Assembly (NCBI GenBank): GCA_900019385.1
Contig: FIZJ01000006.1
Coordinates: forward strand, 30,593 to 94,592
DNA length: 64,000 nucleotides
Source of the DNA: an uncultured Clostridia bacterium
GTDB lineage: Bacteria > Bacillota > Limnochordia > Darwinibacteriales > DTU012
Reading direction: 5' to 3'
Position 1 is the stretch's first letter. Each line of letters begins with the position of its first letter. The notes beneath the pieces were generated by a model. That model was not told the DNA's origin and did not search any database. It saw nothing but the letters and a program-made list of their open reading frames with translations. This document shows, in pieces, positions 20,937-23,158 of this stretch. A program made the position numbers and the translations under genes.

Positions 20937-21638
20937 ATGCATATCGATGACAGTTTGCTCAGGCTTCAGGCAAGCCTTGATTACAGATTCAACAATATTA
21001 CTCTTTTGGAACAAGCCCTTACACACCGTTCATGCCGCCCGGGAGATCCGGACGGCAACAATGAGCGGCTGGAGTTTCTTGGAGACGCTGTCCTGCAAAT
21101 AGTGGTCAGTGATTATCTATATCACCAGTACCCAAAACTAGGCGAAGGCAGGCTGACTAAGATCAGGGCATATCTGGTCAGCCAGCCCACTCTAGCCGGC
21201 CATGCCCGCAAACTTGGGCTGGAGCAATACATGAAAGTCGGCAGGAATGAAGCCATCAGGCGTGCGTACGAACTAGATTCGCTGCTTTGTGATGTGTACG
21301 AAGCTGTGATCGGCGCTGTCTATCTTGATTCTGATCTTGACACGGTTAAACCAATCATTTTAGAGCATGTAACCTGGGCCGACAAGGAGCACCTGGAAAA
21401 ACAGCTGTCGATCATTGATGCCAAGAGCACGCTTCAAGAACGGTTTCAGCAATTGGGGAGGGAACTGCCCACATATTATCTCGTTCAGGAACAAGGGCCT
21501 GATCATGCCAAGGAATTTGTGATGGAAGTAATCTTTGACGGTAAGGTGTTGGGAAAAGGTGTGGGAAGGTCAAAAAAAGAGGCTGCGCAAAACGCAGCCC
21601 GAGAAGCGCTTGCCAACCTTGACAATAATCACGATTGA
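20937..21638 (+). CDS. rnc: Ribonuclease III
   Basis: RNase III cuts double-stranded RNA in rRNA precursors and other structured transcripts. The catalytic domain has the signature NNERLEFLGDAVL (about 41-53) and a second acidic site near CDVYEAVIGAVYLD. A double-stranded RNA-binding domain occupies about 160-230, ending KKEAAQNAAREAL. The protein is 233 aa. Its end overlaps the end of the minus-strand S24-like gene by 10 bp. In most Firmicutes smc would follow directly; here two regulatory genes intervene. Confidence 0.97.
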   Translation: MHIDDSLLRLQASLDYRFNNITLLEQALTHRSCRPGDPDGNNERLEFLGDAVLQIVVSDYLYHQYPKLGEGRLTKIRAYLVSQPTLAGHARKLGLEQYMKVGRNEAIRRAYELDSLLCDVYEAVIGAVYLDSDLDTVKPIILEHVTWADKEHLEKQLSIIDAKSTLQERFQQLGRELPTYYLVQEQGPDHAKEFVMEVIFDGKVLGKGVGRSKKEAAQNAAREALANLDNNHD

Positions 21639-22384
21639 GGCCAAGAGCGCCACAGCTGAATGATACTTCCCACTTCAGCAAGACCGGCGCGGGAAATGGG
21701 AGCGAGTGTGTTCGCATTAAGAATCCTGTGATTGGCCTCGCGCCGGCCGATCAAATATGAACGGCCTTTCTTCAGCAGGACCCAACAGGAGTTGTTTTTA
21801 CCAATAGTGGTGTTCACAATGATCAAATCGCCGTGAATGAACCAAGGTGCGAACTCATTTGTTTCAACGCTCATCGCGAACAATCCTTCCGGGTTGGGAG
21901 CGTGGTAAAACAGGTAAACCCAGTTTTGCGGCATATCGTTTTTCCGTTGACTCCACGACCTGACCGGTACTTTCACCAAGAACCTGCTCTCACCGTTTTG
22001 GATTACAGAGAAGCCTTCCAAGCTGTCGGCATGTTCTTTCAAAACAGCTCGTTTGAACTCACCTATGCCGTGGTAGTTGCCCTTGCTCAACCAATAATAA
22101 ACCGACTTGTTGTCGGCAAATTTCAGGTGGTTGGCGATTTCCCGCACGGTTATGTTCGGGTTTTCCCTGATTAGGGCCGCCATATATGCCAGGGTTTCGT
22201 TCAGCTGCAAAGGTCTTCCCACCCATCTTCGCGCAATGTTCCAAGGTTGCTGTAGAATAATTATCATCTGAGGGCGGAAAACCTTTACATGAAACATGGA
22301 TATATTGGCCGTCGGCTGCGGATTAGCGACGATATTTCCATGATTTATGGAAAGTTCAGCTGAGCACTCGGGAAAAGTGAGCAT
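21629..22384 (-). CDS. HTH protein with degenerate S24/LexA-like C-terminal domain
   Basis: I do not recognise this 251-aa protein as a named family. Residues about 60-115 look like a DNA-binding helix-turn-helix (ITVREIANHLKFADNKSVYYWLSKG). The C-terminal 90 residues follow the LexA/S24 pattern: LFAMSVETNEFAPWFIHGDLIIV matches the SGxSM...DGDLL region, and YLIGRREANHRILNANTLAPI matches the TVKRL...L.P.N...PI region. The catalytic Ser is replaced by Glu and the catalytic Lys by Gly, so self-cleavage is not expected. The ATG has GAGGAGAAAC upstream at slightly long spacing. It is divergent from a SigH-like sigma factor, with identical Shine-Dalgarno blocks forming an inverted repeat. A repressor or sigma-control role is inference. 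Confidence 0.7.
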   Translation of the reverse strand: MLTFPECSAELSINHGNIVANPQPTANISMFHVKVFRPQMIIILQQPWNIARRWVGRPLQLNETLAYMAALIRENPNITVREIANHLKFADNKSVYYWLSKGNYHGIGEFKRAVLKEHADSLEGFSVIQNGESRFLVKVPVRSWSQRKNDMPQNWVYLFYHAPNPEGLFAMSVETNEFAPWFIHGDLIIVNTTIGKNNSCWVLLKKGRSYLIGRREANHRILNANTLAPISRAGLAEVGSIIQLWRSWPQS

Positions 22385-22391
22385 AACCAGA

Positions 22392-22452
22392 GTTTCTCCT
22401 CAATATAGATAATACGGAAAGACATGCTGTGGACACTCCGAGGAGGAGAAAC
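22392..22452. repeat. Perfect 10-bp inverted repeat in the divergent region
   Basis: GTTTCTCCTC (22392-22401) and GAGGAGAAAC (22443-22452) are exact reverse complements 41 bp apart. Each includes the ribosome-binding site of one divergent gene. It may simply reflect two similar Shine-Dalgarno sequences, or a shared operator or RNA-level control site. Confidence 0.6.
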
Positions 22453-22453
22453 A

Positions 22454-23158
22454 ATGGGAAAGACAAATGGCATTGTTGATTCCAATCAACAATGGGATTA
22501 CAGCTTGATCACCAGAATCCGCCTAGGTGATGAAGAAGCAAAGGAAACGCTTGTCCTTAAGTACATCCCAATGGTCAAACATATTGTCCGCAATTATTAC
22601 GCCAGTTTCCTCGATTTTGACGATCTGCTGCAGGAGGGGATCATCGGGCTTCTGCACGCAATAGACGAGTACCGGCCCGATCTGTACGATGTCAAATTCA
22701 GTTCGTTCGCCTATATCTGTATCATCCGGAAAATCTACAACGTAATCAAACACACTTCCGGCAACAAACACAAAGCGCTGAACGACGCTATGTCGCTTCA
22801 GTCGCAGCTGGGCGGTGATGATTCTCGGACCGTCCTGGATCTAATCAGCGACGATAATTCTCTGGTGGATCCAGAACAGATGATTGAAGAAGAGTTTGTC
22901 TTTCAATACCTCGACCGGCTGCTTGCCAATCATCTGTCTCTGCTGGAGTATACGGTGATGAAGATGCTTCTGAGCGGCTATTCCTGCGGTGAAATCGAGG
23001 CTGTTGTCGGAGTGGGAGCGAAAGTGGTGGACAATGCCCGGACCAGAGTGAAAACAAAACTGCGCAAACTGATCGAAGAATACGGTTCGCTGCTTAACCC
23101 ACAGCTCCCTTTGACGGTGCGAAAACGAAAGGATCTGTACTTGAAACTGGGGGGATGA
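22454..23158 (+). CDS. RNA polymerase sigma factor, SigH (Spo0H)-like
   Basis: This 234-aa sigma-70 family protein has region 2 with LVLKYIPMVKHIVRNYY, DFDDLLQEGIIGLLHAIDEY and the SigH-like FSSFAYICIIRKIYNVIKHTS. Region 4 contains GYSCGEIEAVVGVGAKVVDNARTRVKTKLRKL, very like the SigH recognition helix region. SigH is the early-stationary and sporulation sigma factor, usually encoded near rpmG-secE-nusG; this site between rnc and smc suggests a paralogue or a moved gene. The ATG at 22454 follows AGGAGGAG; the track start is upstream. A hairpin terminator overlaps its stop. Confidence 0.85.
   Translation: MGKTNGIVDSNQQWDYSLITRIRLGDEEAKETLVLKYIPMVKHIVRNYYASFLDFDDLLQEGIIGLLHAIDEYRPDLYDVKFSSFAYICIIRKIYNVIKHTSGNKHKALNDAMSLQSQLGGDDSRTVLDLISDDNSLVDPEQMIEEEFVFQYLDRLLANHLSLLEYTVMKMLLSGYSCGEIEAVVGVGAKVVDNARTRVKTKLRKLIEEYGSLLNPQLPLTVRKRKDLYLKLGG

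Follow-up and report, generated by a model that had tools for sequence, protein, structure and literature searches.

Between rnc and smc, the window (the whole stretch of 64,000 nt analysed here, part of a 2.17-Mb draft genome) carries two divergent genes which, at a probability that we put at roughly 0.6, constitute a conserved module: a CI-like autoregulator predicted to be non-cleavable (S24L) and a sporulation-type sigma factor, with two operators, O1 and O2, and a SigH-type promoter in the region that they share. The order of genes is fabD-fabG-acp-fabF-rnc, S24L on the minus strand, the sigma gene on the plus strand and smc-ftsY-ylxM-ffh; the 3′ ends of S24L and rnc overlap by 10 bp. S24L is present as a single copy per genome. 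Both genes, picked out in a sequence-only reading as a minus-strand regulator and a plus-strand sigma factor, are real and conserved in relatives, and both had been started too early there. Homologues of the 251-aa minus-strand frame (start at 22384) begin at a codon aligned with the GTG at 22222, leaving 197 aa, and the sigma gene begins at the ATG at 22454, preceded by the strong ribosome-binding site GAGGAGGAG. The divergent region between these starts therefore comprises 231 bp (22223–22453; Table 1).

Table 1. Features of the S24L-sigma locus, in positions of the window.
Feature	Position	Strand	Evidence
S24L, HTH plus degenerate LexA/S24-fold regulator, 197 aa, GTG start	21629..22222	-	Homologue comparison, predicted structure
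S24-fold core of S24L, about residues 112-192	21647..21889	-	UmuD alignment, predicted structure
N-terminal helical HTH region of S24L, residues 7-66	22025..22204	-	Alignment, predicted secondary structure
-10 element of the S24L promoter, TAAT (GAAT in many relatives)	22260..22263	-	Conserved spacing
-35 element of the S24L promoter, SigH type, TGTAAAGGTTTT	22278..22289	-	37/39 loci
O1, operator-like palindrome ACAT-N5-ATGG, abutting the S24L -35	22287..22299		Palindrome count, spacing
O2, operator-like palindrome CCATGATTTATGG, 51 bp from O1	22338..22350		Palindrome count, spacing
Candidate sigma promoter GAGCATA ... TATAGA, low confidence	22379..22409	+	Conserved block in alignments
Ribosome-binding site of the sigma gene, GAGGAGGAG	22440..22448	+	Sequence; kept in alignment of relatives
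Sigma factor, SigH-type, separate family, 234 aa, regions 2 and 4	22454..23158	+	Profiles, tree
Conserved C-terminal tail EYGSLLxPxxPxxVRKRxDLYLKL of the sigma family	23078..23155	+	Extends past the SigH models

The sigma factor passes the cut-offs of general sigma-70 models (PF04542, 4.5e-14; TIGR02937, 66.7 against a cut-off of 42.9) and stays below those of the SigH equivalogs (124.6 vs 208 for NF006148 and 119.6 vs 294.8 for TIGR02859). A true SigH, scoring 409.3 bits, is encoded at C7:119127 in its usual place, cysS-mrnC-rlmB, which rules out a misplaced sigH at rnc-smc and answers the question, raised in the sequence-only reading, of whether the genome holds a second such gene. The label "SigH-like" given there is apt, SigH being the nearest relative, yet the protein belongs to a family of its own. 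It shares regions 2 and 4 with Sigma-H (Spo0H), is 34–35% identical to the SigH of the same genome, and ends its region 4 with DNAxxRVKxKL, which we take to resemble the corresponding end of B. subtilis SigH; a SigH-type promoter beside the gene and a SpoVS neighbour in distant members are further likenesses. It differs from Sigma-H in its score (125 bits vs 208), its extra C-terminal tail and its location at rnc-smc instead of rlmB. In a tree of 94 sequences (midpoint root, with some long branches unsure), a long, fully supported branch parts the rnc-smc sigmas from both other SigH-type sigmas. The rnc-smc sigma probably acts when cells enter sporulation or stationary phase. Additionally, a third SigH-type gene lies at G000:C6:164804-165358 (L097:4706-5365), adjoining mgtC and surE; with 241 bits it exceeds some SigH cut-offs, and most relatives contain more than one further SigH-type match.

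S24L combines an N-terminal HTH region with a C-terminal S24-type beta domain, as do LexA, lambda CI and UmuD. An AF2 model built from 38 homologues (pLDDT 87.6, pTM 0.63) matched LexA (3k2z, E 1.9e-5), the C-terminal domain of lambda CI and UmuD in the PDB, and also phage CI repressors. Whole-chain TM-scores were low (about 0.4), which would be expected from a different orientation of the two domains, and C-terminal fragments of LexA, CI and UmuD reached about 0.6 by target length. Searches of the PDB with the sequence gave chance or marginal matches, the window's S24L stayed under the Pfam S24 cut-off, and its HTH was assigned to no Pfam family at cut-off; one homologue (L160) passed the S24 model (6.5e-7, 29.5 bits vs 23.3). 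The S24-type C-terminus noted earlier is supported by the predicted structure, the check that had been proposed for this protein. The HTH region is conserved as PxITVREIAxxLxFAxxKSVYYWLxK, with S40, Y42, Y43, W44, L45 and K47 invariant. The protease dyad appears to be lost. The position of the nucleophile is E123 in S24L and mostly E, D, R or Q among the 38 homologues, with Ser in two; the position aligned with the catalytic Lys of UmuD, as presumed from a weak alignment and from what is known of UmuD, is G159, occupied by Gly, Arg or Ala in the homologues and by Lys in none of the 38. Lacking a Ser-Lys dyad, S24L would not be expected to undergo RecA-type self-cleavage. In this, and in not being phage-borne, it is unlike LexA, lambda CI and UmuD.

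The S24L promoter, on the strand of S24L itself, consists of TGTAAAGGTTTT and, downstream at a distance typical of SigH promoters, (G/T)AAT. The pattern AAAGGTTTT-N12-xxTGAATxx was found in 37 of the 39 S24L loci, and four S24L loci from outside the class have it as well if one variant is counted; the published SigH consensus is RNAGGAWWW / RNNGAATWW (PMC8510167). The same block was also weighed as a possible sigma-gene promoter and discarded, as its -35/-10 order reads towards S24L. The candidate sigma promoter further along has a TATA-like -10 and is present in sigma-only genomes too; we assign it tentatively. The exact 12-mer TGTAAAGGTTTT occurs once in the window's genome. Allowing one mismatch, TGTAAAGGTWTT matched there at 17 sites vs 20 in a reversed control, and a -10 at the right distance was present at the S24L site alone; consequently, no regulon can be defined from the motif. 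Within the module we infer that the neighbouring sigma, not canonical SigH, reads the S24L promoter. A possible but less likely arrangement would make S24L an ordinary target of canonical SigH that regulates the neighbouring sigma, with the latter serving a separate regulon and having no action on S24L. The genome does encode a bona fide SigH (409 bits) whose consensus the S24L promoter fits, and SigH could read it equally well, given that the spoVS promoter (AAAAGGATTTT ... CTAATA) of the same genomes is close to it. Against this stands the failure to find S24L without the neighbouring sigma in any of 61 genomes, as well as a small, not decisive difference between the two promoters, S24L having a -35 of AAAGGT with 12-bp spacing and spoVS AAAGGA with 11. 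The spoVS promoter itself is strongly conserved in relatives (L209-L234), with TAAT instead of GAAT as its -10.

The divergent region of relatives contains two palindromes CCAT-N5-ATGG, mostly with at most one mismatch. Compared with mononucleotide shuffles of loci from related genomes, S24L loci held 51 palindromes vs 5.5 expected, and loci without S24L held 4 vs 7.7. O1 and O2 are 50–53 bp apart in 29 of 31 genomes, whereas the distance from O2 to the sigma gene varies between 86 and 171 bp; in one exception (L114) the measurement was anchored on a wrong -35, and the separation of its two palindromes is 52 bp. With a transcription start about 9 bp downstream of the -10, the centre of O1 would lie at about -42. 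Lambda CI bound at OR2, in a similar position, activates PRM. Judged from sequence, the paired palindromes stand in helical phase beside the promoter of S24L itself, as do the operators of cooperatively binding CI. We infer that dimers of S24L bind them. Only two families (f1 and f3) have the palindromes, and at more distant S24L loci the promoter motif is kept while the palindromes are absent. This would be accounted for if another regulator bound the palindromes and S24L acted elsewhere or contacted the sigma protein, a reading that we consider improbable: the enrichment is found where S24L is present and not at sigma-only loci, the palindromes are rare in the window's genome (three sites, no more than in a reversed control, so that they point to no wider regulon), and a spacing of five helical turns suits mutually contacting dimers. 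Dimers of S24-fold repressors do contact each other.

Among 61 relatives, mostly mutually related MAGs whose counts are therefore not independent, the sigma gene was detected in 53 (E < 1e-60). S24L was present in 40, in each of them divergent from a sigma gene, and in none of the eight genomes without sigma. Sigma without S24L occurred in 13 genomes of several families, so the sigma factor need not be accompanied by S24L. The C-terminal tail of the sigma factor alone retrieved the family from 36 of 200 genomes of the phylum, the majority of which lie outside the class. Loci outside the class included, smc directly follows sigma in 93 of 101 (eight contigs having been fetched twice); in three the contig ends too soon, and the remaining five represent three genomes with a relocated sigma (L154, L157 = L248 and L177 = L235), which corrects the statement that the gene is always found at rnc-smc. 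This position before smc marks the sigma gene as an ancient resident of the junction, and the earlier description of the two genes as "inserted" there is misleading. The divergent pairing had been proposed from this one genome, together with a check for co-occurrence; the two genes are indeed neighbours at rnc-smc in relatives, and in L154 they have left it jointly, still divergent. The L154 pair (L154:5193-6693) is followed by an apparent permease and a purine-nucleoside phosphorylase-type gene, and in L177 sigma precedes the same apparent genes. On the sigma tree, the distribution of S24L calls for about five gains or losses, with at least two of these events forced by well-supported branches; as S24L is nearly always in one slot, repeated loss would be the simpler reading. 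L109, of the same family as the window's genome, has sigma without S24L and retains a CCAT-N4-ATGG palindrome in a 353-bp gap, possibly reflecting a recent loss. Since rnc, smc, ftsY and ffh are strongly syntenic across the loci, and sigma stands alone at that place in 13 of 61 genomes, one could regard S24L and sigma as unrelated neighbours held together merely by conserved gene order. The conserved elements in their shared divergent region, the joint relocation in L154 and the failure to find S24L without sigma make this very unlikely. That the pair is a remnant of a prophage or mobile element captured at rnc-smc can be given hardly any credence, for all the resemblance of S24L to phage CI repressors and the PHROG sigma-factor match of sigma, as relatives are absent from the viral contigs and phage records searched, the same site is occupied across several classes and the junction holds no other phage genes. 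Nor was a defence system indicated, PADLOC giving no match for S24L and a weak region-2 match for sigma.

The surroundings of the sigma gene in relatives fall into several layouts: rnc / S24L (antiparallel) / sigma / smc, rnc / sigma / smc, rnc / (220-aa protein) / spoVS / sigma / smc, and others with S24L ahead of the 220-aa gene or of spoVS. SpoVS, an early sporulation protein, was identified by Pfam (5.7e-39) directly upstream of sigma in distant members; the window's genome differs in having spoVS elsewhere (C6:223196). In B. thuringiensis, SpoVS is SigH-dependent (PMC8510167). The window's genome encodes SigE, SigG, SigK and a SigF/SigG-type sigma and is thus genetically equipped as a spore former. 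Of the stress or developmental role first suggested for the pair, the developmental one is made likely by this sigma set and by the SpoVS neighbour, and a link of sigma and S24L to sporulation is likely. Two side observations concern the slot upstream of sigma. The conserved protein that distant relatives encode between rnc and spoVS (210–290 aa; L127:4926-5561, L158:4866-5528, L164:4608-5297 and similar) carries the motif EIHVLAxxxRxPKQxxRDIESxLxxxxGIxIDHRxISVAQ and has marginal LeuA_dimer or DUF matches and no clear family. In L162 and L246 (one contig), a radical-SAM gene, Elp3-like by eye, occupies the space between rnc and sigma.

For the module as proposed here, a SigH-type sigma, possibly the neighbouring one, would switch S24L on. 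Dimers of S24L may then bind O1 and O2 jointly on the same face of the helix, five helical turns apart. Since O1 lies beside the -35 of S24L and O2 nearer the sigma promoter, S24L would regulate itself and probably the sigma gene too: bound at O1 it would control its own promoter, by activation or repression, and from O2 it may control the sigma gene. S24L and sigma would thereby close a feedback loop as development begins. In pairs of sigma and anti-sigma factors, the partner binds the sigma protein and usually shares its operon. S24L is divergent, contains an HTH and is served by a promoter of its own. The evenly spaced operator-like sites suggest a small regulatory switch. More speculatively, and with distinctly less confidence, an undescribed sporulation-type sigma family and a cleavage-dead CI-like regulator acting through cooperative operators could work, much as in lambda, as a bistable switch or timer by which cells enter development, encoded beside smc, a gene for chromosome segregation.

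In the open-licence papers searched, we found no description of the sigma-S24L system. Well-studied spore formers rely on one SigH for entry into sporulation. The family described here is a second, ancient SigH-type family located beside smc in many uncultured Bacillota, with SpoVS or a LexA-fold regulator adjoining; its carriers are a large group of bacteria, mostly uncultured, that have sporulation genes, and in them it often faces a DNA-binding protein with the fold of LexA and phage repressors. Self-cleavage normally ties the CI/LexA fold to DNA damage, and in S24L this fold would be used without self-cleavage. The cis-regulatory layout, a SigH-type promoter with two phased operator-like sites, is directly testable.
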